The notes beneath the pieces were generated by a model, which saw nothing but the letters and a program-made list of their open reading frames with translations, made no database searches and was not told the DNA's origin. The position numbers and the translations under genes were made by a program. A DNA stretch of 64,000 nucleotides from an uncultured Eubacteriales bacterium (GTDB lineage Bacteria; Bacillota; Clostridia; Lachnospirales; Bianqueaceae), in contig OMYN01000008.1 of assembly GCA_900315265.1 (NCBI GenBank), positions 1 to 64,000 on the forward strand, read 5' to 3'. Of the stretch, positions 1,216 through 16,159 are shown piece after piece (the stretch's first letter is position 1; the number at the start of each line of letters is the position of its first letter).

Positions 1216-2094
1216 ATGTGGAAGAGGAGAAATAATAATGTAAAATTGTATGAAACATTTCGCGATTTTTCAGTATCGGTTCTGAGAAAATGTTATTCGG
1301 AAATCATTCAGATCGATTGTGCGAAACATCTATTAGCTGAAATCGATCCGGAAGAAGGAAAAGAACCGGTCTTTGAAAAACAGGATCAGTTGATCCCCAA
1401 GGTTTTGGAAAAACTGAGAATTCCGGGAGAAGAAAATACAAAGATCGTATACGTTCAGATTCAAAAAGTTTTTGATGAGGAGGATCGGGAAAAACTGTCT
1501 GCTTTTCGGCTAAAAGGAGAAGACGGGATCCTTTTCGAAGGGGAAGTGATGGCTTTTACTTCCTCTTTTGTTTTTCTCTGTTTTCGAGATATAACGCTTC
1601 AGGAAAAATACAGGATCCTGGAGGAACAAAGTAAGATCGAAAACCAGGAGGTAAGGCCAAAAGTCTTTGTCAGAACTTTTGGCTACTTTGATGTTTTTGT
1701 GAATGACACGCCAGTAGCCTTCAAGAATCCTAAGGCTAAGGAGCTGCTTGCACTTTTAGTCGATCACGCGGGAGGATTTATCAACAGCGAAGAAGCAGCA
1801 GGTTTGCTGTGGGGGGAAGTACCATATGATGAAAGTGTTAAGGCTAAGTACCGGAAAACGGCTTATGAACTTAGAAAGACATTAAGGGATTTAAAAATCG
1901 ACTATATTCTTTGCGAGAAGAAGGGACAACGGGGGATCGATCGTACAAGTTTTGAATGTGATTATTTTCAACTGCTGGATGGGGATAAGAAAGTAAGGGA
2001 ATCCTTTGCGGATTCCTATATGAAAGAATATGACTGGGCACAGGAAACGCTGGCAGATCTATTGGTTTTAACCAAAGAAAACGATCCGAAATGA
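1216..2094 (+). CDS. SARP/OmpR-type winged-helix transcriptional regulator of the RiPP cluster
   Basis: This 292-residue protein has an OmpR-like winged-helix domain at about residues 150-245. It opens with RTFGYFDVFVNDTPVAF, continues with KAKELLALLVDHAGG and FINSEEAAGLLWG, and resembles the DNA-binding half of SARP (BTAD) activators. Residues 20-140 are mixed alpha/beta, end in FLCFRDIT, and look PAS-like, so they may sense a signal. There is no TPR-like BTAD tail. Start ATG 1216 follows GAGGGGG by seven bases. It is the first gene of the cluster, separated by 122 bases from the biosynthetic operon, whose promoter carries phased repeats of the sort SARPs bind. Regulation of that operon is inferred from position and motif, not shown. 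Confidence 0.75.
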   Translation: MWKRRNNNVKLYETFRDFSVSVLRKCYSEIIQIDCAKHLLAEIDPEEGKEPVFEKQDQLIPKVLEKLRIPGEENTKIVYVQIQKVFDEEDREKLSAFRLKGEDGILFEGEVMAFTSSFVFLCFRDITLQEKYRILEEQSKIENQEVRPKVFVRTFGYFDVFVNDTPVAFKNPKAKELLALLVDHAGGFINSEEAAGLLWGEVPYDESVKAKYRKTAYELRKTLRDLKIDYILCEKKGQRGIDRTSFECDYFQLLDGDKKVRESFADSYMKEYDWAQETLADLLVLTKENDPK

Positions 2095-2130
2095 TTTCTG
2101 CTGAAGTATTTTTCAGAAAACGGCAGAAAA

Positions 2131-2180
2131 GGACAAACAGGAACGAATGTGAACGGACGAGAACGCAGGAAATGTATTAT
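2131..2180 (+). promoter_or_regulatory. Phased GAACG direct repeats and -10 of the biosynthetic operon (SARP-like operator)
   Basis: GAACG occurs at exactly 2141, 2151 and 2161, with a degenerate GGACA at 2131, giving four repeats on a 10-base period, one helical turn. TATTAT at 2175-2180 can serve as -10 and starts nine bases after the last repeat. No good -35 is present. Streptomyces SARP activators are known to bind short direct repeats about 11 bases apart whose last copy lies about eight bases before the -10, replacing the -35. TATAAA at 2187-2192 is an alternative -10. Confidence 0.6.
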
Positions 2181-2216
2181 TATCCGTATAAAATTTGATG
2201 CGGAGGCTTGAGTTCG

Positions 2217-3230
2217 ATGAGATATTTGATCATTTCAAATGGATGCGGGGCCGGTCATGCAGTAAGAGATTTGGTCCTGGCTGATGAAATCAGAAGGAGA
2301 AGCGATGGCGCAGAAATTTATTTTGCGTCATATGCCGCAGGGCTGTCCGTATTTCATTCCATTGGAGAAACGGTTATTGACCTGAAACAAGAGGAGCGGC
2401 CTGACCCGGATGTGATAGGGAAGGTACTGAGCCGTGTAATAAAAGAGGTACACCCGGACGTGCTGATCAGCGATGAGGTGATTGCAGCGCTGGGACATGA
2501 TCGCACGATCAAAACCTACTTTCTGACCAATCATTTGAATATTTATGAATACAGCTATGCCTACTGGGTTTGTGAAAGCATTCTTTTTGCAGAGCTTCCT
2601 GACAGTCTTGGATCATTGCTGCAGGATAGAAAGAAAATCAGAACAATCGGTCCCATTGTCCGGGAAAGATTCGATATACCGGATCTTACCGTAAGCGAGC
2701 CTTCTGACCAGTGCCTTCACGTATGGGTGGGTGGGTCGCAGTTAAAAGCCCTTCAACTTGAAAATATCTGGCTCTTCAAAAACCTCTTTGAACAGTTAGA
2801 CAACAGAAAAATCTATGTTCATGGGATAGAATATGAAAGGTTCTTTCGTAAGGTATCGCTGCCTAATGTTTTCTGGGTAGAAAGAGACTATTCTCAAAAG
2901 CCTTATCAGCAGGGCGTACAGATTACCAGAGGGGGTATTCAAACTCTATGGGAGATGGCCTTGACCGGCGCAGCGTGTATCGCTGTGCCTTATTCGGATA
3001 AAGTAAATCCGCAGGAAATAAAATATGCAAAAGTCATGGAAAAAAGAGACCTTTGTAAATTAGTGCAATACCAGGATATTCGGGAAAAAAGACTGAAAGA
3101 AGTAGTAGAAGAAGTTGAGGCGGCAAAGTCCGTAAAGTATTCCAGGTATCTTCAGAACAGAGGGTATCAATTGGTCCTGTCCTGCAGAAATGAGTGGGAA
3201 GCATGGATGAGCGAAATAACGCAGCAGTAA
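2217..3230 (+). CDS. GT-B fold glycosyltransferase, GT28/MurG-like, in RiPP cluster
   Basis: The protein has 337 residues from ATG 2217, chosen because GGAGG at 2202-2206 lies ten bases upstream; the in-frame TTG at 2208 is too close to it. The N-terminus MRYLIISNGCGAGHAVRDL matches the MurG-type glycine-rich opening where the acceptor domain begins. The C-terminal half has ITRGGIQTLWEMALTG, AACIAVPY and NPQEIKYAK, corresponding to the nucleotide-sugar binding region of GT28 and UGT enzymes. No membrane segment is seen. It heads the biosynthetic operon and overlaps the next gene by 28 bases. It probably attaches a sugar to the modified peptide, as MftF does in mycofactocin or SunS in sublancin, but donor and acceptor cannot be read from sequence. 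Confidence 0.75.
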   Translation: MRYLIISNGCGAGHAVRDLVLADEIRRRSDGAEIYFASYAAGLSVFHSIGETVIDLKQEERPDPDVIGKVLSRVIKEVHPDVLISDEVIAALGHDRTIKTYFLTNHLNIYEYSYAYWVCESILFAELPDSLGSLLQDRKKIRTIGPIVRERFDIPDLTVSEPSDQCLHVWVGGSQLKALQLENIWLFKNLFEQLDNRKIYVHGIEYERFFRKVSLPNVFWVERDYSQKPYQQGVQITRGGIQTLWEMALTGAACIAVPYSDKVNPQEIKYAKVMEKRDLCKLVQYQDIREKRLKEVVEEVEAAKSVKYSRYLQNRGYQLVLSCRNEWEAWMSEITQQ

Positions 3231-4402
3231 AGCATATTTTCAGATGGGATTTTGCATTAGAAGTATGGAATGGAAAACTTTATGCTGCCTCACAAAGCAG
3301 CGGCCTGAGGCTTCCGATCAGTAAAGTTCAAGCGTTAGCGTTAGCTTTGTTCGATGGAACAAGGACCGATGATGAAGTCGAGAACATTTGGAGCAGAATA
3401 TTTTCCGGTAAGGGTAGAAGCGCTGTTGAAACAGCATCTATCCGGTGGAACCTGCTGCTTCCGGAGAACTGTGATATGCCTCACAGCGTAAGGAAGCCGG
3501 TTACACTGGAACATTTATCGGCTATCTTGAAAAACGCGGAAGAGGATATGGGAAGGCCGATGATACCGGAGAATGTTGTTTGGAGATTTACGGATCAGTG
3601 CCGATTCTGCTGCTCCTATTGTTATGAAAAGGACTACCTTCGGAAACTGAGAAAACCACTTATTCTGAAAGAGAAAATGTCCGTTGTAGATAAGTTGTTT
3701 ATGTCCGGTGTCCGACATGTTCATTTGACGGGAGGAGACCCTTTTTGTGAAGATGATCTATACCCGATCCTTACAGAACTGCTGAAACGGAATATTCGGG
3801 TCTCTGTCTTGACCAAGTCACGGATCAATGTCGATGCAATAAGAAAGATGGAGACAAATAATCTTTCTCTTGGTTTCAGCATTGATAGTGCTGATTCGGT
3901 CATTGCAGGAAAATTAACCGGTGAAAAGGATTTTTTGCAGGGGGTGCAAAAAACGATGAGACTGCTGAAATTAAACGGAATCAAATTTTTTGCTGCTTAT
4001 ACTCTGACGCAGATGAATTATTATGATTTTGACAAGGACATGCAATGGCTTCTGGATCAAGGCACAGATAGAGTAGAAGTTACCCGGTATCAGGAAACAG
4101 GAAGAAAGCAGTCGGACCGGGAACTTTCCATTACCGATTCCATGTGGGATGAGGTAAAAAAGAAAAATGCAAGGGGAGTGCGTTTTCTGGATGACAAACC
4201 GGCACAGTGTCATTCGGGAAGGCAGTCGATGACAATTGATGCAGATGGAACGGTGATTTTCTGTGATGTTTTTCCGGATGCAGGACGTTTTGAAAATATA
4301 CGCCAGTCTTCTCTTTCAGAACTGTGGGATCAATACTCTTATAACTGCTTTTGCAGAGAAAGAGGCGGCAAATGCTATCGCTGCGAGAAAATATTTTATT
4401 AG
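3203..4402 (+). CDS. Radical SAM/SPASM peptide maturase 1
   Basis: A 399-residue protein from ATG 3203; GTG 3194 is an alternative. Residues 12-90 resemble a small PqqD-like peptide-recognition (RRE) domain, including NGKLYAASQSSGLRLPIS. The radical SAM 4Fe-4S motif is Cys133-x3-Cys137-x2-Cys140, followed by the LTGGDPF turn used for SAM binding. The C-terminus has a SPASM-like pattern: CHSGRQSMTIDADGTVIFCD, the LSELW signature, then CFC and CYRC, enough cysteines for at least one extra cluster. Such enzymes install thioether or carbon-carbon crosslinks, or epimerise residues, in peptides. It overlaps the glycosyltransferase and the next radical SAM gene, so translation is probably coupled. 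Its exact chemistry is unknown. Confidence 0.88.
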   Translation: MDERNNAAVKHIFRWDFALEVWNGKLYAASQSSGLRLPISKVQALALALFDGTRTDDEVENIWSRIFSGKGRSAVETASIRWNLLLPENCDMPHSVRKPVTLEHLSAILKNAEEDMGRPMIPENVVWRFTDQCRFCCSYCYEKDYLRKLRKPLILKEKMSVVDKLFMSGVRHVHLTGGDPFCEDDLYPILTELLKRNIRVSVLTKSRINVDAIRKMETNNLSLGFSIDSADSVIAGKLTGEKDFLQGVQKTMRLLKLNGIKFFAAYTLTQMNYYDFDKDMQWLLDQGTDRVEVTRYQETGRKQSDRELSITDSMWDEVKKKNARGVRFLDDKPAQCHSGRQSMTIDADGTVIFCDVFPDAGRFENIRQSSLSELWDQYSYNCFCRERGGKCYRCEKIFY

Positions 4403-5673
4403 GAACAGGCAGTGGACATGTTTTTCTGATTGACGACAGTCATGAAAAGCCAGAGCGTATCATTGGGAGAAAGCTTTCCGTACTTCTTTGTTATTTACTG
4501 ACAGCACCAAGTGAAGAGGCTTGTCGGGAAGCTTTACAGCAGGCAGGGATTTGCTATTCAAAGGAAGAGATCCGAAAACTTGAGATTTACTTCATCAAGA
4601 AGTTTCCCGGTGCCTTCAGTCAGGGCAGTAATGAAGGTTCCCAAAGACACGGGGCTGTAGCAAAAATGCGGATAGAAAGCGGCAGCTGTCAAAACGATCG
4701 GCTGTCATTCTTTCGTTTGGATTATCCGGTCCATTTGATTTATGTCCCTACCTGGCGCTGCAATCGAAGTTGCCGTTATTGCGGTGTCCCGAAAACCAGG
4801 GATGGAGAAAAGATCCCGGAAGACCTGTTGATTGAAAGACTGACAGAGGCTTCGAAAAAGGGATTGCAGAAGCTGGATATTCACGGAGGGGAACCTCTGT
4901 ATTACGCTTTTGAAAAAACGGAGCATTTAGTTGCAGCTATGAAGCAGGCCGAGGTGAAAACATACGTTTCGACTAAGAATCTGGTAACTGCGGAGATGGC
5001 TGAAAGGCTTAGGAAAGCAGGGCTCGATTGCATACAGCTGAGCCTTGACACGATCGATACATCGCAAGCACAGATGCTGGGGTATCCGGACGGCTATTTG
5101 GATTTTTTCAATCGTTCTTTAGAAAACATTAGAAGAGAGAACATTCCTATATCGGTGAATGTGGTCGTTTCCCAGGAAAACGAAAAAGGTTTGGAGAAAC
5201 TCCTTACTTTTCTGAAGGAAAAAAATATTGAGATGATCACTCTGTCTCCCTTGAGAAAAACAGATAAGGTCGGATTACATGAGGTCAAAGAAGAAAAGAA
5301 AGAATATCTGAATCAAAAATTAAGCAAGTTCGGTATGCGGATACCTGTTTCAGAGCCGGGTCAAAGACCGATCTGTGAGGCGGGACGAAATGGATTTCTG
5401 ATTCTTCCTAATGGTGAGTGCGCCTTTTGCGATTTTATTGCAGACCTCCCTGAGTTTCGTTTCGGAGACATCAAAACTAGTACGGTGGAAGAGATCTGGA
5501 ATGACCCGAAGCTGCTTGAATTGACCTTTCCTTCCAAGGAACGTTTGGCAGAAAAATGCCGATCGTGTGAACAAAATGAGATTTGCCGATCCAGAGGTTT
5601 TTGTTATGTAAATCAGGATTTCAGAGGAAAGGTAAAGGAGGACAGATTTTGCCTGAAAGGATGGGGAAGATGA
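4372..5673 (+). CDS. Radical SAM/SPASM peptide maturase 2
   Basis: A 433-residue protein. ATG 4372 is preferred over 4351 because GAGGCGGCAA stands before it. Residues 1-110 form a variable N-terminal region that may hold a PqqD-like recognition domain. The radical SAM motif is Cys130-x3-Cys134-x2-Cys137 (CNRSCRYC), and DIHGGEPL is the glycine-rich SAM-binding segment. The C-terminal SPASM domain is the most complete of the three: CEAGRNGFLILPNGECAFCD, VEEIWND, then CRSCEQNEICRSRGFC and a final FC, consistent with two auxiliary 4Fe-4S clusters. It differs clearly from its two neighbours, which argues for a separate reaction rather than a recent duplication. Confidence 0.9.
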   Translation: MLSLRENILLGTGSGHVFLIDDSHEKPERIIGRKLSVLLCYLLTAPSEEACREALQQAGICYSKEEIRKLEIYFIKKFPGAFSQGSNEGSQRHGAVAKMRIESGSCQNDRLSFFRLDYPVHLIYVPTWRCNRSCRYCGVPKTRDGEKIPEDLLIERLTEASKKGLQKLDIHGGEPLYYAFEKTEHLVAAMKQAEVKTYVSTKNLVTAEMAERLRKAGLDCIQLSLDTIDTSQAQMLGYPDGYLDFFNRSLENIRRENIPISVNVVVSQENEKGLEKLLTFLKEKNIEMITLSPLRKTDKVGLHEVKEEKKEYLNQKLSKFGMRIPVSEPGQRPICEAGRNGFLILPNGECAFCDFIADLPEFRFGDIKTSTVEEIWNDPKLLELTFPSKERLAEKCRSCEQNEICRSRGFCYVNQDFRGKVKEDRFCLKGWGR

Positions 5674-5677
5674 TAGC

Positions 5678-6916
5678 ATGGCCTTGAAAGAATGCTGGGC
5701 CATTCAAGTTGGTAAAGGCCGCTTGTTCTTAAAAAATACAAAACAAGAGCAGGTGTGGATCCCTCTGTCCAGTAAAGAAGCAGTAGGTATTTATTTGCAA
5801 AGCTGTGGTTTGAGTGCTGATGAAACAGTGGATTTTATGTTTCAAATGCATCTAATCAGAAACAAAGCTATGACTGCGCAAAACCTGGTCCATCGGTATA
5901 GTGTTTTTTTTAATAGTTCTGGAGAGAAACGACCAGTCGATTGGGGCTATGTAAAGAAATTACTGGCAGCAGCAGCAGTTTCACCGAAATACTTTGAGTA
6001 TCCTTTCCCCAGAGTTATGAAAGCTATTGTAACCGATCGATGCAGTGGTTTATGCAAATATTGCTATGATGAGATATACCGGAAAGCCACAGATGTACAG
6101 GAACTGAGCATTGAAGAATGGTCAAGGATCCTTAAACAGGCAGAAGAGGTCGGAATTTATCAGATGATCCTTATTGGCGGTGAACCATTCGAGAAAAAAG
6201 GGATTATGAAGGTGATCGAGGAAGCAGCAGCGGCACACATCTATGTAGAGATCGTCAGCAAGCACTTGTTTTCACAAGAAGAGGCCCAAAAGCTTGCAGA
6301 AATTCCCAGGGAATTTTTAAAAATTATTCTTAGCGCCGATCTGGTTCCCGGCCAAGAAGATGAACTGTTATATACCTTTGAAGGGGAATCTGAAAGGATT
6401 TTGCAAAGTTATAGAGAACTGAAAGCCGCAGGGATACAGCCGGCGATTCAGACAGTTGTGACAAGCAAGAATTTAAAAAGTATTCAACGATTGGTCACAT
6501 TTTATACGGATCTCGGAACAAAGGAATTTCGACTTAGTCGTTTTTGCGTGACAGAAGGAAAAGAAGATTTTTGTGTTTCCGATTCACAATGGGAGGAATT
6601 AAAGAGAAAATTGATCTCACAAAAGGACGTTGCGGTCATATGGATGTCGGAAGGAGTCGAGAAAAAGACTTCAGCTCAAGTCTGTGTGAACGGAAGTACC
6701 TGCATGGTTGTACTTCCCGATGGAGAGGTTTGTTTCTGTGACTACTTTCGCGACATACCTAATAATTACATAGGAAATCTCAAAAACAGAACTTTGCTCG
6801 ATGTTTGGAATTCGGAAATAAGAAGGGAGAGGGTGAAACAGCATGTACGCTGTTATGCCGAATTGCAATTGGAAGATCCTGCAAATTCAAAGAAAGCTGC
6901 CTTTTCTGGTTCTTGA
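5678..6916 (+). CDS. Radical SAM maturase 3 with reduced SPASM region
   Basis: A 412-residue protein starting four bases after the previous stop, behind GGGGAAG. The N-terminal 105 residues (for example WAIQVGKGRLFLKN, IYLQSCGLS) are again compatible with an RRE-like domain. The radical SAM motif is Cys122-x3-Cys126-x2-Cys129 (CSGLCKYC), and LIGGEPF follows for SAM binding. The C-terminal part keeps CVNGSTCMVVLPDG, EVCFCD and LLDVWNS, but after one more cysteine (VRCYAEL) it stops without the final CxxC group. It may therefore carry fewer auxiliary clusters than maturases 1 and 2. Its last 74 bases overlap the protease gene in another frame, which may explain the altered tail. Confidence 0.87.
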   Translation: MALKECWAIQVGKGRLFLKNTKQEQVWIPLSSKEAVGIYLQSCGLSADETVDFMFQMHLIRNKAMTAQNLVHRYSVFFNSSGEKRPVDWGYVKKLLAAAAVSPKYFEYPFPRVMKAIVTDRCSGLCKYCYDEIYRKATDVQELSIEEWSRILKQAEEVGIYQMILIGGEPFEKKGIMKVIEEAAAAHIYVEIVSKHLFSQEEAQKLAEIPREFLKIILSADLVPGQEDELLYTFEGESERILQSYRELKAAGIQPAIQTVVTSKNLKSIQRLVTFYTDLGTKEFRLSRFCVTEGKEDFCVSDSQWEELKRKLISQKDVAVIWMSEGVEKKTSAQVCVNGSTCMVVLPDGEVCFCDYFRDIPNNYIGNLKNRTLLDVWNSEIRRERVKQHVRCYAELQLEDPANSKKAAFSGS

Positions 6917-7892
6917 ATTGTGGATACCTTATGGCGCATGGGATACGGAACCGGGAAGAAGCGGAGAAGCTCATTTAGCTGAGCACGTACTGATCGGTAT
7001 CATCCGAAGAAACCTCAGTTTTTACGAACAGGTGAATTCATATGGATATACAAATTCCTATCGTATCCGTATTAGCTGGATAATGGAACCAAGCCGCTTG
7101 CAGGAGAGAATCGGGGCAATCGTTAATGACTTGAGCCGGGCAGCGCTGGATCAAAAACTATTTGATCAGGAAAAAAGTAAAGTCATTCAGGAAATAAACA
7201 CGATCAAAAAAACTGATTCACTGACATTGGTGGAAGAGGTTGAACAGATCATATATCAAAAGAAGAAAGAAGAAGTCACTGCGCAGGGTGATACACGGCA
7301 ATTGGAACAGATAGATTTCCCGTCTTTTCTCGAAAAGCTGAAGAAGGTAATGAATGAAGAAGGGATCGTCTTTACCTTGACAGGAGATATTGAGGATTTG
7401 AATCTTTTCCCAAATCGTCAGCCGTTAACGGAACATACCAGCCAAGTGTCTCTGTCTTTGAAACAAGGAAGGGATGAGATGTGCCTTTCACTGTCAACTC
7501 ATGACGGAGATATTAAAGCCTTCCGTTGGCAAATATGGGATATAGGAAGTGCGCATGCTGCAGAAATACTCGAGACTTTTCTTGAATTTCGATCGGCAGA
7601 CGAAAGGATCCGGATCCGTTCCGTCCGACACAGAAATGATATGCTCTTTATCTTTATAATTCCGAAAGATGTAAGGTCCTGGCAGGAAAAATTCAGCGGG
7701 GAGCTCTTCCAAAAAGTATACGAAATGTATTATATAGAACAACGATACCTTACGGCAGAACCTCGAAAGGAAGCAGAGAGAATAGCAGAGGATGTTTTTG
7801 AGACAACGTTTCACAAAGAAGGAAGAGAGATTTCCAGTTGGCAGATTTGGGAGCGTTTTCAGAAAATGATAAATCCGGAGGTGAAAGCATGA
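6843..7892 (+). CDS. M16-family zinc metallopeptidase (likely leader peptidase)
   Basis: The inverted zinc motif HxxEH is present as HLAEH at residues 44-48. The third ligand fits Glu117 in KVIQEINTIKKTD, aligned with the pitrilysin AELTM segment. Ligands would be His44, His48 and Glu117, with Glu47 catalytic. At 349 residues it is shorter than usual M16B proteins (about 400-430), and its second lobe is weak. Members of this family sit with radical SAM enzymes in PQQ (PqqF) and subtilosin (AlbE/F) loci. The start overlaps the preceding gene by 74 bases, behind GGGAGAGGG. Neither exporter in the cluster has a peptidase domain, so this is the best candidate to remove the leader. Confidence 0.82.
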   Translation: MYAVMPNCNWKILQIQRKLPFLVLELWIPYGAWDTEPGRSGEAHLAEHVLIGIIRRNLSFYEQVNSYGYTNSYRIRISWIMEPSRLQERIGAIVNDLSRAALDQKLFDQEKSKVIQEINTIKKTDSLTLVEEVEQIIYQKKKEEVTAQGDTRQLEQIDFPSFLEKLKKVMNEEGIVFTLTGDIEDLNLFPNRQPLTEHTSQVSLSLKQGRDEMCLSLSTHDGDIKAFRWQIWDIGSAHAAEILETFLEFRSADERIRIRSVRHRNDMLFIFIIPKDVRSWQEKFSGELFQKVYEMYYIEQRYLTAEPRKEAERIAEDVFETTFHKEGREISSWQIWERFQKMINPEVKA

Positions 7893-9601
7893 ATCAAAAA
7901 TATAGTGTTCCAACGGCTGTGGGAATAGCTGCCGGGACAATAAAAGGTATTCTTATCACATGCAATATTTATTTATTGCAGGCAATCGTGGATACGGCAG
8001 TGACAGGCAAATACTGGGATGCAATGATCCGGCTCTGCTATATGGCTGTCAGTACGGGAATCGTTCTTTTAGCGGACCTTGTTAAAAGTAAAATGATCCT
8101 GGTCCTGAATAAACGGATCGAAATCGGAGAAGGGGAATGTCTACTTAATAAAATCAGCCGTCTTCCTTATGAATTATTTGAGGACAGTGCCTTGTTCCCT
8201 AAATTCGATAGGGTCATGACGGATGGTGTGGAGCAGAAAAAAGGACTGTATCAGAGCATTTTCAATGGAGTGGAGTTTGCCGTTGAATATATCGGGATCA
8301 GTATATATGCTTGTTCTGTTAAATGGTGGTGCCTGTTAGTTATTTTCTTATTGACCATACCGGTCTGGCTGTTAACGATCGTTGGTGCTTCATCTGAAGG
8401 TAAATTTACCCAGGATAATTGGAAGTGGAATCAAAAAGCTCTTATTTTCTCTCACATCCTAAATAGCCGTGAATTTATCAAAGAAGAGAAAATATTCGGC
8501 TTTTATCCGTTGATCAGCAAAAGATGGAAAGAAAATGCCGAAAAGTACCAGCATGGAAAAATAAGAAGTTCTTTTTCTGTCAGGGTATGGATCGGTGCTG
8601 TTAATTTCCTTCAATATGCGGTCACGATCGTTCTTGCATGGCTTTTGATCCTTGATATTCGAAAAGGAAGTGTCACCATTGGTGAACTGGTAGCGACGAT
8701 GGACAGCCTTTGGAGGATGATAGGTTCAGCCTTGTTTACGGTCGTAGGTTTACTGGGCGGATTTGTCGGATATAGTGAATACGCCAAACAGCGGAAATGG
8801 TTCATGAACCTCAAGGAGGAGAAAGAAAGCGGAGAGGAACTTGAGGATATCCGCAGCGTTGAATTTCAGAATGTTTGCTATGGATACCCCGCCGAAAAAG
8901 AAGAAGACCGCCGTATGGTCCTTCAGGGTGTATCGTTCCGCATCGATCAGGGAGAAAGGACTGCCCTTGTCGGAGAGAACGGCTGTGGTAAAAGCACGGT
9001 CATTAAGCTTATGACAGGGCTTTTGAAACCGGTTTCCGGGACGATTTTGATCAATGGAAGAAATGCGGAAGATTACTCGATATCTTCCAGAAGAAGAGCT
9101 TTTTCCTGTGTTTTCCAGGATTATATGAAATATGATATTTCTCTGAAGGACAATATTCAGCTGGGGGCCCTGTGGCAAAAGGAAGATCCGTCAGAAGCGC
9201 TGAGTCGTATCGACCGGGATCTTGCAGCAAATGTGGGAGGAATGGACCAGATCTTAGGAAGATCGGTGGAAGGTGCCAGAGATGTTTCGGGAGGTCAATG
9301 GCAGAAGATCGCACTTGCCAGAGGAATTTATTCAAAGGCTTCGTTTTGGGTGCTGGATGAACCGACTGCGGCGATCGATCCGATTTCGGAACGGGACGTT
9401 ATTGAAACAATGTTGAAAGTAAGAGAGAACTGCACTAAGGTGTTTGTCACTCATAGGCTTGGATCGGTCCGTTTCATGGATAAAGTCATTGTTCTTAGAA
9501 ACGGTAAAGTAGAAAACATCGGAACACACGAAACATTGAGAAAGGAGGATCCATACTATGAAAAGCTTTACAGCACTCAGGAAAAATGGTACCGTTCGTA
9601 A
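7889..9601 (+). CDS. ABC exporter half-transporter 1
   Basis: A 570-residue membrane-ATPase fusion. ATG 7889 is chosen because CCGGAGGTGAAAGC precedes it; it overlaps the protease stop by four bases (ATGA). Residues 1-310 contain hydrophobic membrane spans (for example WWCLLVIFLLTIPVWLL, TIVLAWLLIL). The ATPase has Walker A GENGCGKST, signature VSGGQ, Walker B FWVLDEPT and a switch histidine in VFVTHRLG. There is no N-terminal C39 peptidase domain. It probably pairs with the next gene to export the finished peptide or give immunity. Confidence 0.88.
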   Translation: MNQKYSVPTAVGIAAGTIKGILITCNIYLLQAIVDTAVTGKYWDAMIRLCYMAVSTGIVLLADLVKSKMILVLNKRIEIGEGECLLNKISRLPYELFEDSALFPKFDRVMTDGVEQKKGLYQSIFNGVEFAVEYIGISIYACSVKWWCLLVIFLLTIPVWLLTIVGASSEGKFTQDNWKWNQKALIFSHILNSREFIKEEKIFGFYPLISKRWKENAEKYQHGKIRSSFSVRVWIGAVNFLQYAVTIVLAWLLILDIRKGSVTIGELVATMDSLWRMIGSALFTVVGLLGGFVGYSEYAKQRKWFMNLKEEKESGEELEDIRSVEFQNVCYGYPAEKEEDRRMVLQGVSFRIDQGERTALVGENGCGKSTVIKLMTGLLKPVSGTILINGRNAEDYSISSRRRAFSCVFQDYMKYDISLKDNIQLGALWQKEDPSEALSRIDRDLAANVGGMDQILGRSVEGARDVSGGQWQKIALARGIYSKASFWVLDEPTAAIDPISERDVIETMLKVRENCTKVFVTHRLGSVRFMDKVIVLRNGKVENIGTHETLRKEDPYYEKLYSTQEKWYRS

Positions 9602-11336
9602 TTTACGGCGCGGATGGGATTATATCTGCTATGTCTTCAAAAAATCACCGTTTATTTGCTCTGCAGATTTTTGCATGCATCTTATGGTGGTTGGTATTTG
9701 TCCGGTAGTTACTGCGACACTTTGGGGAAAATGTATCGATTCCCTTTCTACGGACCAAAGCAAATTGGGGATCCTTTTACTTATCCTTCTTTTTATAGGA
9801 GGACTAAGCAGCGGGTTTTTGTTCTGGGGTGAAATCATCGATAACTTTTATCGATGCAAAGTGTCTCTGCTGATGCAGGAAAGGATACATGAGAAAGCTA
9901 GAAGATTATCTGCCCAAGTCTATGAAAACAGCCTCGTCCGGGATATGGCGGAAAGAGCGAATAAAGTTTTCTATTATGGCCCGGCGATCAGTTTTTCGTT
10001 TTCAGGAATCATGATCCTTTCAGGTTTTGTCAGCAGTTTGCTCTCTATTATCGTATTGGCACGATACCATTACATTTATGCCTTGCTGATGCTTGGAATG
10101 CTGGCGACCGATTTAATGAAGATGTCTCTTAGCAAAAAAAGAGCTAAGGTCATAGATGGACAAACAGAAAGCAGACGATCGGCTGAGATCCTTCGGACCT
10201 ATGTGTGGAAACACGAGGCTGCTAAAGAGACCAAGATGCACCTGGCCGGCAGTTTTTTCATTGACCGATGGAAAGGTCTGACAGAAAAGATCATGACGGT
10301 AGAGTATACTTGTTTTCAAAAGATCAATCGGCAAAGTACGCTGCTTAGTCTGATATCGGGGGTACTGCTGATTGTGGGGATCGGTATCAGTATTCGTTTC
10401 CTGATCGAAGGAGAACTGACGATCGGTAGGTTTGGAACGGCGATCATCCTTTTTAGACAGTCTGAAAAATATGCGCAAACGTTTGCCGATGCACTGAGCT
10501 CTCTTAGTGGAGATCTGGAACACATTAAAGCCGGGTATGAATTTCTGGAACTTGAGGAAGCAGACGTGGACGGAACTGGGCCATCGTCTGATCCGATGAA
10601 AAAGGTACAGCTAAAACACGTTTCATTCCGTTATCCCGGTGTCGAAGCTGCTGAAGCTTTGAAAGACATTGATTTGACTTTGGAAAAAGGAAAGCTATAT
10701 GCTGTGGTAGGAGAAAACGGAGCAGGAAAGTCGACCTTGGGCAAGATCATCCTTGGTTTATATAAGCCGACAGAAGGCAGTATTTCCGTTGATGGAAAGG
10801 ATATAGTTGCAATGTCCGAAGCGGAGCGCTTTTACAGGCGTTCGGCCGTTTTTCAGGATTATAATATATATCCTTTAACGGTCAGCCAAAATATTACCTT
10901 GAGTGAAAAACCTGCAGAGTCCGTCCCTGCCTTTGTAAAGCCGGATGACCTTCTCGGCAAAGAAATCGGAGGGAAAGAACTGTCAGGCGGGCAGAAGCAG
11001 CAGATCGCGATCGCGCGGGGCAGAAATAAGAGCTCCGACCTGATCATTCTGGATGAGCCGACCAGTGCTATGGATTCCTTCACCGAAGACAAGGTTTTTC
11101 GATCCTTCCTGGATCTGTCGAAGGATAAAATATCCGTAGTTGTGACTCATCGGCTGGGTATTGCGACTCAGGCGGACCAAATCATAGTTTTGAAAGACGG
11201 AAAGGTAGAGGCTGTTGGATCCCATGACAGGCTTTTGAAAGATTGTCCTTACTATCGATTATTGTGGGACGCCGGAAAAAGTCTGTATGAGATAAATACG
11301 GACAAATTACAAGAAGGGAGGAATTCGTATGCCTGA
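9558..11336 (+). CDS. ABC exporter half-transporter 2
   Basis: A 592-residue membrane-ATPase fusion, overlapping the previous gene by 44 bases with its own AAAGGAGG site nine bases before ATG 9558. Membrane spans occupy about residues 1-320. The ATPase has GENGAGKST, LSGGQ, LIILDEPTSAMD and VVVTHRLG, so both nucleotide sites of a heterodimer could be active. It lacks a peptidase domain. Its last eight bases overlap the start of the small peptide gene, and the peptide's ribosome site lies inside its coding sequence. Confidence 0.88.
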   Translation: MKSFTALRKNGTVRNLRRGWDYICYVFKKSPFICSADFCMHLMVVGICPVVTATLWGKCIDSLSTDQSKLGILLLILLFIGGLSSGFLFWGEIIDNFYRCKVSLLMQERIHEKARRLSAQVYENSLVRDMAERANKVFYYGPAISFSFSGIMILSGFVSSLLSIIVLARYHYIYALLMLGMLATDLMKMSLSKKRAKVIDGQTESRRSAEILRTYVWKHEAAKETKMHLAGSFFIDRWKGLTEKIMTVEYTCFQKINRQSTLLSLISGVLLIVGIGISIRFLIEGELTIGRFGTAIILFRQSEKYAQTFADALSSLSGDLEHIKAGYEFLELEEADVDGTGPSSDPMKKVQLKHVSFRYPGVEAAEALKDIDLTLEKGKLYAVVGENGAGKSTLGKIILGLYKPTEGSISVDGKDIVAMSEAERFYRRSAVFQDYNIYPLTVSQNITLSEKPAESVPAFVKPDDLLGKEIGGKELSGGQKQQIAIARGRNKSSDLIILDEPTSAMDSFTEDKVFRSFLDLSKDKISVVVTHRLGIATQADQIIVLKDGKVEAVGSHDRLLKDCPYYRLLWDAGKSLYEINTDKLQEGRNSYA

Positions 11337-11475
11337 TGAAAAAGACGAACTGAATATCAAGGAACTTCAGACCCTCGTCAGTGAATTGGGCCTTGAAGAC
11401 GAGTTCGACAGCATCGAAGCAGAATACTGCGCAAGCTGCTGTGTCGTTCTTGGCGGCGGCGGGACAGGCTGCTGA
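11329..11475 (+). CDS. RiPP precursor peptide (48 aa) with Cys/Gly-rich core
   Basis: A 48-codon gene with a strong ribosome site, GGGAGG at 11316-11321, seven bases before ATG 11329. The first 33 residues form a very acidic leader: MPDEKDELNIKELQTLVSEL can form a helix of the kind recognised by RRE domains, and GLEDEFDSIEAEY follows. The last 15 residues, CASCCVVLGGGGTGC, are the likely core: four cysteines, Val-Val-Leu, four glycines and a final Thr-Gly-Cys. The CASCC spacing recalls the clustered thiol donors of sactipeptides and ranthipeptides, but I recognise no known family. It ends the operon and a terminator starts ten bases after its stop. M16 cleavage near the Glu-Ala-Glu-Tyr/Cys junction is a guess. 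Confidence 0.88.
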   Translation: MPDEKDELNIKELQTLVSELGLEDEFDSIEAEYCASCCVVLGGGGTGC

Positions 11476-11484
11476 TGTCCGGAC

Positions 11485-11514
11485 AGGGCTGCTCTTATTG
11501 AGCGGCCCTTTTTA
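11485..11514 (+). terminator. Rho-independent terminator of the RiPP operon
   Basis: AGGGC-T-GCTC, loop TTATT, GAGC-G-GCCCT, then TTTTTAT. It begins just after the precursor stop and closes the cluster. Confidence 0.85.
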
Positions 11515-11657: not shown

Positions 11658-12755
11658 ATGAAATTAGGAATCGTAGGACTGCCTAACGTAGGCAAGAGTA
11701 CTTTGTTTAACTGTCTGACCAAAGCCGGAGCCGCACAGGCAGCCAACTATCCTTTCTGCACCATCGAGCCCAACATTGGCATCTCGGCTGTTCCGGATCC
11801 TCGTCTGGATGTGCTGACAAAGATGTACGATTCTAAAAAGACCACTCCCGCTATCATCGAATTCGTCGATATCGCAGGCTTGGTAAAAGGCGCCAGCAAA
11901 GGCGAAGGTCTGGGCAACCAGTTTCTGTCTCATATCCGTGAATGCGATGCCATTATTCATGTAGTACGCTGCTTTGAAAATGACGATATCATCCATGTGG
12001 ACGGCAGTATCGATGCTATGAGGGATATCGATACCATCAACATGGAGCTGATGCTGGCCGATCTGGATGTCCTGGAGCGCCGCAGGGCTAAGGTCGCAAA
12101 GGCAGCTAAACTGGATAAGACCGCTCAGCCGGAACTGGACCTGATCGAAAAATTGATGAAGGGCCTGGAGAAAGGCACCCGTGTTAAAAACATTCCGCTG
12201 ACTGATGATGAAAAGACTCTGGCGGATACCTTTGAGCTGCTTAGCGCAAAACCTGTTATCTATGCGGCCAACGTAGACGAAGATGATCTGTCCAATGACG
12301 GCGTTGATAACGAGCAGGTGCAGAAGGTCCGCGCATATGCCAAAGAACAGGGCGAAGAAGTCTTCGTTGTCTGCGCGAATATCGAGGAAGAGATCGCGGC
12401 ACTGGAACCGGATGAAAAGAAAGAATATCTGGAAGAACTGGGAGTCAAATCCTCCGGCCTTGACCGTCTGATCGCGGCTAGCTATCATCTGCTGGGTCTG
12501 ATCAGCTTTTTGACCTGCGGGCCGGATGAGAGCCGGGCCTGGACTATTAAAAAAGGTACACTGGCTCCTCAGGCTGCCGGTAAGATCCATACCGATTTTG
12601 AACGCGGTTTCATTCGCGCAGAGGTCGTTTCTTTTGACGATCTAAACCGCCTGGGTTCTATGAACGCTGCCCGTGAAAAGGGTCTGGTCCGTTCAGAGGG
12701 CAAGGATTATGTGATGAAAGACGGAGATGTGGTTCTGTTCCGTTTCAATGTCTGA
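11658..12755 (+). CDS. ychF: Redox-regulated ATPase YchF (Obg-like)
   Basis: The 365-residue length is the family norm. The P-loop GLPNVGKST is at residues 7-15 and FVDIAGLVKGASKGEGLGN is the switch II region. The C-terminus carries a TGS domain (FLTCGPDESRAW, IHTDFERGFIRAEV). YchF is an ATP-preferring Obg-family protein tied to ribosomes and stress responses. An AAGGAGATAG site precedes ATG. The gene begins the conserved host region after the accessory cluster and is far richer in CGT/CGC arginine codons than the cluster. Confidence 0.97.
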   Translation: MKLGIVGLPNVGKSTLFNCLTKAGAAQAANYPFCTIEPNIGISAVPDPRLDVLTKMYDSKKTTPAIIEFVDIAGLVKGASKGEGLGNQFLSHIRECDAIIHVVRCFENDDIIHVDGSIDAMRDIDTINMELMLADLDVLERRRAKVAKAAKLDKTAQPELDLIEKLMKGLEKGTRVKNIPLTDDEKTLADTFELLSAKPVIYAANVDEDDLSNDGVDNEQVQKVRAYAKEQGEEVFVVCANIEEEIAALEPDEKKEYLEELGVKSSGLDRLIAASYHLLGLISFLTCGPDESRAWTIKKGTLAPQAAGKIHTDFERGFIRAEVVSFDDLNRLGSMNAAREKGLVRSEGKDYVMKDGDVVLFRFNV

Positions 12756-12830
12756 TACAGCAGCCGGGCATTTACAGCCAGACCAAATGAAAATAGTAAA
12801 TCAAGCCAGGTAAGTAGAAAGGTTTTGTAA

Positions 12831-14462
12831 GTGGAACAGAATTATAGAGTTTCGGAAAGCGATCGCCAGGCTATCGAAAAAAGGCGCACCTTCGCGATCA
12901 TTTCCCACCCGGATGCCGGTAAAACGACGCTGACGGAAAAGCTGCTCTTATACGGAGGAGCTATCGTAGAAGCCGGTATGGTGAAAGGCAAAAAGAACAT
13001 GCGCCATGCGGTTTCGGACTGGATGGAGATCGAAAAGCAGCGCGGTATTTCGGTCACCTCTTCGGTCATGCAGTTCAAATATAACGGCTACTGTATTAAT
13101 ATCCTGGATACTCCCGGACATCAGGATTTCTCTGAGGATACCTACCGTACCCTGATGGCAGCGGATTCAGCCGTCATGGTCATCGACGGTTCTAAAGGGG
13201 TTGAGGCCCAGACCCGCAAATTGTTCAAGGTCTGCCGTATGCGCGGCATCCCGATTTTTACCTTCATCAACAAGATGGACCGTGAGGCCAGGGACAGTTT
13301 CGATCTGATGGCAGACATTGAAGACAACCTTGGTATTGAAACCTGTCCGATCAACTGGCCGATCGGAAGCGGCAAGAGTTTTCAGGGAGTATACGACCGG
13401 CTCAACCGGAAGATGCTGAAGTTTATGTCCGATGGCTCCGACATAGGCAGCGCTGTCAGCGGTGCCCATGAGATCGATCAGATCAGCATCGAACTGGACG
13501 ATCCCAAGCTTGGGGACATTATCGGACAAGGGCCTCTTGATCAGCTGAAAGAGGAGATCGACCTGTTGGACGGAGCGGGACATGAGCTGGATATGGACAT
13601 GGTCCGCAAGGGAGAACTGTCGCCGGTCTTCTTCGGATCGGCCCTGACTAACTTTGGTGTCGAGCCCTTTCTGAAAGAGTTTTTGAATATGACGACCTCC
13701 CCCCTGCCCAGGCAGGCCCAGGAAGAAGTGGTCGATCCTTTCGATAGCCGTATGACCGGCTTCGTTTTCAAGATCCAGGCCAACATGAACAAGGCCCACC
13801 GTGACCGGGCTGCCTTCATCCGCATCTGTTCAGGTGTCTATGAAAAGGGCATGCAGGTCTACCATACCCAGGAAGGCAAGACCATCCGTCTGTCCCAGCC
13901 TACCCAGCTGATGGCCCAGGACCGGTCGATCGTGGATAAAGCGTGGGCAGGCGATATCATCAGTGTATTCGATCCGGGGATCTTTTCCATCGGAGATACC
14001 ATCTGTGATCCATCCCATGTCATTCATTATGAGGGTATCCCCACCTTTGCTCCGGAGCATTTCTGCCGGCTGCGTCCTGAAGATTCTCTGAAAAGAAAGC
14101 AGTTCATCAAAGGTACATCTGAAATCGCCCAGGAGGGTGCCATCCAGGTCTTCAAAGAGCCTGAGGGCGGTATGGAAGAGGTAATTATCGGTGTCGTGGG
14201 TACTCTTCAGTTTGATGTTATGCAATTCAGACTGAAAACGGAGTATAATGTCGATGTGCGGATGGAGATGCTTCCCTATGAGCATATCCGCTGGATGACC
14301 AGCAGTGATATGGATCCTAAGGAGCTGACCCTTACCAGTGATACCAAAGTGGTGATGGATATGAAGGATCATTACCTTCTTCTGTTTGCCAGCGATTGGA
14401 ATATCGACTGGGCCCTGAAGCACAATCCAGGCCTTGAACTGGCCGAATTCAGCCGCGGCTGA
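12831..14462 (+). CDS. prfC: Peptide chain release factor 3
   Basis: A 543-residue translational GTPase starting with GTG. The P-loop reads SHPDAGKTTLTEKLLLYGGAI, then MEIEKQRGISVTSS (switch I), DTPGHQDF (G3) and NKMDRE (G4). RF3 removes RF1 and RF2 from the ribosome after peptide release. It is followed 20 bases later by glnS on the same strand. Confidence 0.96.
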   Translation: MEQNYRVSESDRQAIEKRRTFAIISHPDAGKTTLTEKLLLYGGAIVEAGMVKGKKNMRHAVSDWMEIEKQRGISVTSSVMQFKYNGYCINILDTPGHQDFSEDTYRTLMAADSAVMVIDGSKGVEAQTRKLFKVCRMRGIPIFTFINKMDREARDSFDLMADIEDNLGIETCPINWPIGSGKSFQGVYDRLNRKMLKFMSDGSDIGSAVSGAHEIDQISIELDDPKLGDIIGQGPLDQLKEEIDLLDGAGHELDMDMVRKGELSPVFFGSALTNFGVEPFLKEFLNMTTSPLPRQAQEEVVDPFDSRMTGFVFKIQANMNKAHRDRAAFIRICSGVYEKGMQVYHTQEGKTIRLSQPTQLMAQDRSIVDKAWAGDIISVFDPGIFSIGDTICDPSHVIHYEGIPTFAPEHFCRLRPEDSLKRKQFIKGTSEIAQEGAIQVFKEPEGGMEEVIIGVVGTLQFDVMQFRLKTEYNVDVRMEMLPYEHIRWMTSSDMDPKELTLTSDTKVVMDMKDHYLLLFASDWNIDWALKHNPGLELAEFSRG

Positions 14463-14482
14463 TAAAAAGAGAGGAATTTATC

Positions 14483-16159
14483 ATGAGCAGTGAAGACCAC
14501 AAAGTAACATTCCCCCTGCCGGAACCGGAAAACTTTATCGAACGTGAGATCAACGCTGATCTGGAGGCGCATATCAACGACCGTGTCCAGACCCGTTTCC
14601 CGCCGGAGCCCAACGGCTATATGCACATCGGACATATCAAGGCTATCTGTGTAGATTTCGGGACAGCTGAGAAGTACGGGGGCATCTGCAACCTCCGCTT
14701 CGACGACACGAATCCCAGCAAGGAAAACACGGAGTATGTGGACAGTATCATGGATGATATCCGCTGGATGGGATTCAAGTGGAACCATGTATATTACGCG
14801 TCCGAGTATTACGATAAACTGTATGAATTTGCCATCCTGCTGATCAAAAAGGGCCTGGCTTATGTCGATGACCTGACCCAGGAACAGATGCACGAGTACC
14901 GGGGCACCCTGACCGAGCCCGGTAAAAACAGCCCTTACCGTGACCGCACGGTGGAGGAGAACCTGGACCTGTTCCAGCGTATGAAGAACGGTGAGTTCAA
15001 AGAGGGAGAAAAGGTCCTGCGTGCCAAGATCGATATGGCTTCTCCCAACATGAACATGCGCGACCCGGCTATGTACCGTATTTCCTATACACCTCATCAC
15101 CGCACGGGTACCAAGTGGTGTATTTATCCCATGTACGATTTTGCCCATCCTCTGTCAGACGCATTGGAAGGAGTCACTTATTCTCTGTGCAGTTTTGAGT
15201 TTGAGGATCACCGCCCCTTGTACAACTGGTTCGTTCAGCAGGTTGGATGTTTTAAGGAGCCGCCCCGTCAGATCGAGTTTTCTCGTATGGAGATCACCAA
15301 TGTTGTGACCTCCAAGCGTAAGCTGCGTGCCTTGGTCGAAGATCATATCGTCAGCGGCTGGGACGATCCCCGCATGCCTACTCTGGCTGGCCTTCGCAAA
15401 CGCGGCTATACGCCGGCTTCCATCAAGAAGTTCATCGCCGATACCGGTGTTGCCAAATCCAGAGGAGCGACCATCGACTACCGTTTCCTGGAATATTGCA
15501 TCCGCGATGATCTGAAACTGAGCCAGAAGCGTATCATGGCCGTGCTGGATCCTTTAAAGGTCGTTGTAGACAACTATCCGGAGGGTCAGGTCGAATATTT
15601 CGAGGTAGCCAATAACCCCGAAAACGAGGCTCTGGGCAGCCGCAAGGTTCCTTTCTCCAAAGAGCTTTACATCGAACGGGATGATTTTATGGAAGTTCCG
15701 GTCAGCAAGTTCAAGAGAATGGCTCCCGGCCGTGAGGTACGCCTGATGGGCGCTTATATAGTTAAATGCGAATCCGTCGATAAGGACGAAAACGGCAATA
15801 TCACCTGCGTTCATGTCACCTATGATCCCGAGAGCCGGGGAGGAAATCCGGCGGACGGCCGCAAGATCAAAGGTACTATCCATTATGTAGCAGCAGGCAC
15901 AGCCAAGCAGGCTGTCGTTCGTATATACGACCAGCTCTTTGTGATGGACGAGGCCTCCGGTGACTATGTCGCCAACCCCGATTCTGTTACCATCATGGAT
16001 AAGGCAGTCGTTGAACCTTCTATCTGTGATGAACCTTTGGGGACCCGTTTCCAGTTCGTCCGCAGCGGCTACTATATCACCGATCCGGACGACTCCAAAG
16101 ACGGCAAGCTGGTCATCAACCAGATCGTACCGCTGAAGAGTTCCTACAAACCGGAATAA
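14483..16159 (+). CDS. glnS: Glutaminyl-tRNA synthetase
   Basis: A class I synthetase of 558 residues. The HIGH motif appears as PNGYMHIGHIKAI and the KMSKS counterpart as VVTSKRKL. The GlnRS/GluRS signature RFDDTNPSKE and a C-terminal beta-barrel anticodon domain are present. It charges tRNA-Gln directly. Many Bacillota lack this enzyme and use the GatCAB amidation route, so its presence narrows the host somewhat. GAGAGGAATTT precedes ATG 14483. Confidence 0.97.
   Translation: MSSEDHKVTFPLPEPENFIEREINADLEAHINDRVQTRFPPEPNGYMHIGHIKAICVDFGTAEKYGGICNLRFDDTNPSKENTEYVDSIMDDIRWMGFKWNHVYYASEYYDKLYEFAILLIKKGLAYVDDLTQEQMHEYRGTLTEPGKNSPYRDRTVEENLDLFQRMKNGEFKEGEKVLRAKIDMASPNMNMRDPAMYRISYTPHHRTGTKWCIYPMYDFAHPLSDALEGVTYSLCSFEFEDHRPLYNWFVQQVGCFKEPPRQIEFSRMEITNVVTSKRKLRALVEDHIVSGWDDPRMPTLAGLRKRGYTPASIKKFIADTGVAKSRGATIDYRFLEYCIRDDLKLSQKRIMAVLDPLKVVVDNYPEGQVEYFEVANNPENEALGSRKVPFSKELYIERDDFMEVPVSKFKRMAPGREVRLMGAYIVKCESVDKDENGNITCVHVTYDPESRGGNPADGRKIKGTIHYVAAGTAKQAVVRIYDQLFVMDEASGDYVANPDSVTIMDKAVVEPSICDEPLGTRFQFVRSGYYITDPDDSKDGKLVINQIVPLKSSYKPE

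Follow-up and report, generated by a model that had tools for sequence, protein, structure and literature searches.

Radical S-adenosylmethionine (SAM) enzymes with SPASM domains mature several kinds of ribosomally synthesized and post-translationally modified peptides (RiPPs). Here we compare these systems with a gene cluster spanning 1216-11509 on the + strand of a 64,000-nucleotide stretch (the window) of contig OMYN01000008.1, from an uncultured Eubacteriales bacterium (assembly GCA_900315265.1; Lachnospirales, Bianqueaceae). A regulator is followed by an eight-gene run encoding a glycosyltransferase, three radical SAM enzymes (rSAM1, rSAM2 and rSAM3), an M16-type protease, two ABC exporters (ABC1 and ABC2) and a 48-residue peptide, and then by a terminator. 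The locus is by kind a radical-SAM RiPP locus, and its combination of genes matches no published class that we found. We favor the reading, at a probability of about 0.58, that its product is a secreted radical-SAM RiPP with thioether cross-links and, probably, a sugar as well.

Among described systems, the StsA/StsB/StsC sactipeptide of Actinomycetota (NF045558/NF045574) shares with the window a small Cys/Gly-rich precursor, a radical SAM enzyme with a SPASM domain and a RiPP recognition element (RRE). The window differs in having three radical SAM enzymes, each apparently with its own N-terminal domain, together with the M16 protease, two exporters and the glycosyltransferase; its peptide has no match to the family and rSAM3 scores below the StsB cut-off. 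A sister cluster on another contig of the same genome (C34, described below) matches both StsA and StsB, likewise below the cut-offs. Streptosactin (GggA/GggB) and the sporulation killing factor (SkfA/SkfB) involve radical SAM/SPASM enzymes making Cys-to-Cα thioethers, and the residues accepting them in streptosactin include Gly; unlike the window, they have one such enzyme in short clusters, and the reviews (PMC8172795, PMC8326336) mention no glycosyltransferase for them and do not describe sactipeptides or ranthipeptides as glycosylated. Thuricin CD and thuricin Z resemble the window in having more than one distantly related radical SAM enzyme per cluster (PMC8172795, PMC12093266), but they have two, lack a glycosyltransferase, and act on two different (CD) or two identical (Z) precursors. 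Ranthipeptides (SCIFF/CteB, PapB) share the radical SAM/SPASM thioether chemistry, but form a defined class without a glycosyltransferase, and the window enzymes are not PapB-like. In subtilosin A biosynthesis, AlbE and AlbF are M16-family proteases. The alb locus thus resembles the window in its AlbA-type radical SAM enzyme, exporter and M16 proteases, and differs in its single radical SAM enzyme, head-to-tail macrocycle, lack of a glycosyltransferase and unrelated precursor.

A radical SAM enzyme and a glycosyltransferase (MftF) do act together on a peptide-derived product in mycofactocin biosynthesis (PMC7491314). Mycofactocin, however, is an intracellular redox cofactor made with one radical SAM enzyme from a precursor with a conserved end, whereas the window has exporters, a Cys/Gly core and a different glycosyltransferase family; nothing in the cluster matches MftA, MftC or MftF above cut-off, the glycosyltransferase matching MurG/GT28 and the peptide nothing. 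Matches to PqqE of the PQQ pathway are likewise below cut-off, and the window peptide has no PqqA-like Glu/Tyr core. Glycocins such as sublancin are glycosylated, Cys-rich secreted peptides and provide a precedent for S-glycosylation, but they rely on GT-A (GT2) enzymes and disulfides without radical SAM enzymes; to our knowledge, no radical SAM enzyme takes part in making any known glycosylated bacteriocin. The open-licence literature, covered in part and hence a weak basis for a negative, yielded reviews of sactipeptides, ranthipeptides, RiPP proteases and RREs, but no class joining this glycosyltransferase with radical-SAM thioether maturases, no glycosylated sactipeptide and no triple-radical-SAM RiPP. 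Nor did it yield a characterized homologous locus, in line with the initial annotation of this DNA, which could name no described class with three distinct radical SAM maturases, a GT-B glycosyltransferase and this core.

The case for RiPP status is strong, as a conserved leader, a separate core and modifying enzymes are encoded alongside one another. The precursor gene (11329..11475, +; 48 aa, MPDEKDELNIKELQTLVSELGLEDEFDSIEAEYCASCCVVLGGGGTGC) is preceded by a strong Shine-Dalgarno sequence, AAGGGAGG, and its product has no match in Pfam or NCBIfam. We infer a leader of residues ~1-32 and a core of ~33-48, YCASCCVVLGGGGTGC. The orthologue in a species of the same genus (G001), MLAETDELTIEELQELVDELGLEDEFDNIEAEICGQCCIILGGGGVGC, is 71% identical to the window peptide, which exceeds every other cluster gene compared between the two (46-67%). 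Nonsynonymous divergence (pN 0.18) is much lower than synonymous divergence (pS 0.72), and the peptide is under purifying selection. A second precursor, MQEKTEINFEELKELVKQMHLEDEFDLMEIGRCSSCCDKCNGGNC, is encoded in the window's own genome (L009, contig C3, 14991-15128, minus strand) directly behind an ABC gene truncated by the contig end; its core is CSSCCDKCNGGNC. The leader motif LEDEFD is identical in all three precursors (window, G001 and C3) and their cores differ, which is the classical leader/core pattern of RiPPs. No radical SAM genes matching the C3 precursor were found elsewhere in that assembly; it may be served by the enzymes of the window, or its own enzymes may be unassembled.

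A scan for open reading frames with at least four Cys and at least two Gly in the last 16 codons and a terminal Cys, a criterion set after the peptides were known, returned exactly one match in the 64-kb window, the 48-aa peptide. Elsewhere it returned one match in 20 kb of C34 and two in 20 kb of a more distant genome (G1078), all inside clusters with a glycosyltransferase and a radical SAM enzyme, against 0-0.017 expected per 10 kb under a Markov null. Each of the six precursors has Cys as its last residue. The 48-aa peptide is encoded by a genuine gene.

Each of the three radical SAM enzymes bears PF04055 and PF13186 above gathering scores and a CxxxCxxC motif, and all three possess the SPASM/twitch auxiliary cluster domain sought in sactipeptide maturases. 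For rSAM1 (3203..4402, +; PF04055 4.5e-15, PF13186 6.5e-9), the nearest solved relatives are PqqE and SkfB, and AlbA is another relative. The second enzyme, rSAM2 (4372..5673, +; PF04055 8.1e-22, PF13186 1.6e-11), has a full SPASM domain and in the PDB most closely matches SuiB (1.8e-8) and PqqE (2.3e-8). The SPASM domain of rSAM3 (5678..6916, +; PF04055 2.2e-11, SPASM 3.9e-9) is shortened, and its best PDB match is the sactipeptide maturase SkfB (4.3e-9). The 3' end of the rSAM3 gene overlaps the M16 gene by 62-74 bp in a different frame. In NCBIfam, PqqE is among the best models for all three (55.5-81.1 bits, cut-off 381); rSAM3 matches PqqE at 1.1e-22 and StsB at 5.7e-20 (71.6 bits, cut-off 625), the best mycofactocin radical SAM score is 54.8 bits (cut-off 265), and no SCIFF/PapB match above cut-off occurs among the best models. 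With scores this far below the equivalog cut-offs, all three enzymes fall outside the named maturase families. Homology to SkfB, StsB and AlbA points to Cys-S to Cα thioethers in the product, and thioether chemistry is likely. Two further radical SAM enzymes of the same genome (contigs C33 and C24) lie outside RiPP contexts.

The initial annotation had named RRE domains among the features that recur in RiPP loci, and for rSAM1 an N-terminal RRE-like domain is supported. Its AlphaFold model, of moderate confidence (predicted local distance difference test, pLDDT, 64), places three strands and three helices (bbb-aaa) ahead of the barrel, and Foldseek recovered SuiB, SkfB and CteB, all of them RRE-bearing RiPP maturases, among the best matches over >400 columns. 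A tblastn alignment of rSAM1 to PqqE also reaches into the N-terminus. The N-terminal domain of rSAM1 thus appears RRE-like, and similar N-termini are suggested for rSAM2 and rSAM3.

The glycosyltransferase gene (2217..3230, +; 337 aa) opens the eight-gene run, its ATG at 2217 being favored over an alternative TTG at 2208. The product is a GT-B-type, GT28/MurG-like enzyme with a GT28 C-terminal domain (PF04101, 2.6e-8) and similarity to the MurG model (4.5e-7), at 29.2 bits against an equivalog cut-off of 250; an AlphaFold model of this protein alone has a pLDDT of 39. A profile built from the window and G001 sequences detected one further gene among 392 genomes of the order, on contig C34 of the window's own genome, and the improved profile detected one more among 399 genomes of the phylum, in G1078 (E 9e-44), which belongs to a different family. 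The 17 genomes of the class of G1078 held no further copy. Each of these two blind finds sits in a radical-SAM RiPP-like cluster. In two of the three contexts the glycosyltransferase gene heads its operon, and it is always accompanied by genes for a protease, an exporter and a maturase of the peptide.

The C34 cluster (L022, 5101-10369, outside the window) reads glycosyltransferase, radical SAM enzyme, peptide, RRE, peptidase and ABC exporter. The glycosyltransferase homologue (5101-6102) is its first gene, followed by a radical SAM/SPASM enzyme (6136-7461; StsB model 7e-51, 173.5 bits, cut-off 625), a 34-aa peptide, MTMYEKPAMEETELIVYTKCGCGCGGHNGEGAGC (7483-7587; StsA model 2e-4, 21.3 bits, cut-off 42), and a discrete PqqD RRE (7683-7940; 4.9e-10); an S24/S26-like peptidase and the exporter complete it. 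The leader of the peptide contains YEKP, an instance of the Y/WxxP motif (YxxP form) that is bound by such RREs; the StsC RRE has been described (PMC12710340). In G1078 the cluster (L028, contig C7, 5558-12007) has a third, different architecture, with two precursors, a radical SAM enzyme, a JAB-type protease, an ABC exporter and the glycosyltransferase. Its radical SAM enzyme is PapB/SCIFF-like (1.8e-42 and 8.5e-38; PapB 145.7 bits, cut-off 340), and two tandem Cys/Gly-tailed precursors, MVDQETILVDENALDIEELDLSDLETLGELCFTLDAGCGAVIVCGGCRIC and MANEDQVLLRELEMEELDLSELNDLAELCYTLDAGCGALIWCGGCC, lie upstream of it across a gap of ~900 bp that contains no convincing gene. The combination of three radical SAM enzymes, which the initial annotation had singled out, is specific to the window cluster and does not define the wider group that shares the glycosyltransferase.

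That the product may be glycosylated, as the initial annotation suggested, is independently backed by the recurrence of the glycosyltransferase family in these two other radical-SAM RiPP-like clusters, and on this genomic association we regard glycosylation of the peptide as probable. Ser, Thr and Tyr are all missing from the G001 core, ICGQCCIILGGGGVGC, which would leave it and the window core without a shared O-linked site; what the two do share in the way of nucleophilic side chains is four cysteines. With these shared cysteines and the Cys end of all six precursors, the simplest arrangement, if the peptide is the acceptor, would be S-glycosylation, perhaps at the terminal Cys, and attachment to cysteine is plausible. 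Alternatively, the sugar might be placed on a hydroxyl installed by radical SAM chemistry or on the N-terminus freed by leader removal. More tentatively, the GT28-like family may mark an undescribed group of S-glycosylated radical-SAM thioether peptides united by their invariant C-terminal Cys, which would bear the sugar or be the site of other chemistry, with widely differing maturases (triple radical SAM, StsB-like, PapB/SCIFF-like) and proteases for the leader (M16, S24/S26-like, JAB).

Conservation in G001 extends beyond the peptide. One contig end carries the regulator, glycosyltransferase, rSAM1 and the start of rSAM2, and another carries ABC1, ABC2 and the peptide, with identities of 51% (glycosyltransferase), 46% (rSAM2 fragment), 67% (ABC1) and 57% (ABC2). 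The initial annotation had staked its reading on the peptide gene being kept beside the enzymes, and this holds in G001, though the enzyme half and the exporter/peptide half are on separate contigs, each broken within the cluster. The end of rSAM2, rSAM3 and the M16 gene were not found when searched for in the G001 assembly, where the contigs break. The genes flanking the cluster in G001 are unlike those in the window, so that conservation applies to the unit as a whole. The cluster is rare, occurring in 2 of 96 relatives and 1 of 391 genomes of the class (1 of 291 for rSAM1), counts that each include the window's own genome. A search of genome contigs with rSAM2 gave a single distant match, viral contigs scanned with the peptide and glycosyltransferase profiles gave none, and a tblastn search of plasmids returned only a distant PqqE for rSAM1 and no match for two of the glycosyltransferases.

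Every gene named in the initial annotation is present in place and on the + strand, with overlaps at six of the seven junctions of the eight-gene run, which confirms the consecutive, mostly overlapping arrangement. Gene content, protein families and conservation in G001 support the reading of a radical-SAM RiPP pathway with a glycosyltransferase, a dedicated regulator and two exporters. The regulator (1216..2094, +; 292 aa) is of a SARP/OmpR-like winged-helix type, its C-terminal part reading as Trans_reg_C/SARP. It has no significant match in Pfam or NCBIfam; its G001 orthologue (56% identity), directly 5' of the glycosyltransferase there, reaches only 0.17 against PF00486. The M16-type metalloprotease (6855..7892, or from 6843, +), a candidate leader peptidase, contains HLAEH and a Glu 68 residues on (in KVIQEI), corresponding to the HxxEH zinc site and downstream Glu. 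It aligns to mitochondrial processing peptidase beta (MPP-beta; phmmer 7e-4) and the YfmF model (4.9e-7). In some RiPP pathways it is an M16 protease that removes the leader (PMC10885120, where the AlbEF structure is cited). Both exporters combine membrane and ATPase regions: ABC1 lies at 7889..9601 (+; PF00005 5.4e-31, PF00664 2.9e-7) and ABC2 at 9558..11336 (+; PF00005 2.7e-29). An intrinsic terminator (11485..11509, +) with a 10-bp G+C-rich stem (7 G-C pairs) and a TTTTTAT tract ends the operon.

Upstream, an IS200/IS605 TnpB-type gene (2-1040; NF040570 5.5e-18, below cut-off) is truncated by the contig start and followed by a hairpin-rich end that resembles, by eye, an IS605 right end. Downstream (11658-16159) are the housekeeping genes ychF, prfC (RF3) and glnS. 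An insertion sequence remnant and conserved genes as flanks here, with other neighbors in G001, are consistent with horizontal movement.

Taken together, we envisage that the SARP-like regulator switches the operon on and that the radical SAM enzymes would use RRE-type domains at their N-termini to bind the precursor leader through its helix and LEDEFD. The three enzymes would then place different cross-links in the core, most likely Cys-S to Cα (or beta/gamma) thioethers, although any assignment of bonds to individual enzymes is conjectural. The GT28-like enzyme would attach a sugar, plausibly to a cysteine thiol, the M16 protease would cut off the leader, and the two exporters would secrete the product, provide self-protection, or both. 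The product may act as a bacteriocin or a signal.

Several points weigh against this account. Since all matches to named maturases are below cut-offs, the type of cross-link is drawn from homology, and the SPASM domain of rSAM3 is shortened. With the middle of the cluster missing from the G001 assembly, the end of rSAM2, rSAM3 and the M16 gene are confirmed in one genome only. The family-level M16 match is weak (PF00675 0.029, below gathering), so that this call depends on the HLAEH/Glu arrangement and the match to MPP-beta. The mutually independent glycosyltransferase contexts number only three, and a lipid, not the peptide, could be the acceptor. The last point leads to the most serious rival, which we regard as possible though distinctly less likely: that a thioether RiPP is made and the glycosyltransferase is a MurG-like self-immunity enzyme, decorating a lipid-linked cell-wall precursor or envelope glycolipid that the peptide targets. 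Immunity genes are common in bacteriocin operons, no dedicated immunity protein is evident in this operon apart from the two exporters, and the nearest curated glycosyltransferase models include MurG, whose substrate is lipid-linked. The MurG similarity, however, is weak and largely limited to the C-terminal nucleotide-sugar domain, the exporters could already confer immunity, and the constant company of maturase, exporter and protease, with the glycosyltransferase heading the operon in two of three contexts, also counts against this rival.

The initial annotation had also raised the prospect of a peptide-derived cofactor. On this view the peptide would be the precursor of a PQQ- or mycofactocin-like redox cofactor, built from its core by the radical SAM enzymes, M16 protease and glycosyltransferase in the manner of MftC/MftF and PqqE/PqqF. 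PqqE is indeed among the best models for all three enzymes, and PQQ and mycofactocin pathways include M16 proteases and glycosyltransferases (MftF, PMC7491314). We nevertheless consider a redox-cofactor role unlikely and give it little weight, as a cofactor should have an invariant core, whereas the cores of the C3 paralogue and of the clusters sharing the glycosyltransferase are quite different; the distribution is extremely narrow, there are two dedicated exporters, PqqA- or MftA-like residues are absent, and no dehydrogenase partner was found adjoining the operon, whose flanks are the TnpB remnant and ychF-prfC-glnS. Least credible is that the 48-aa frame arose by chance or is regulatory and that the radical SAM enzymes act on some other small molecule or protein. 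It is short, last in the operon and without a known family, but its pN and pS, the strength of its ribosome-binding site, the existence of a paralogue that shares its leader, and the Cys/Gly-tailed peptides adjoining all clusters of this glycosyltransferase family, far above the Markov expectation, make this very improbable.

If the product is indeed a secreted, glycosylated thioether RiPP, three distinct radical SAM enzymes working on one 16-residue core would pose an unusually dense cross-linking problem. A glycosyltransferase travelling with three different radical-SAM pathways would join thioether and glycosylation chemistries, and would offer both a handle for genome mining and a new family of peptide-glycosylating enzymes. 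The recurrence of this rare family beside other such pathways gives a hint of bacterial peptides, both cross-linked and sugar-bearing, of a kind that has yet to be described.

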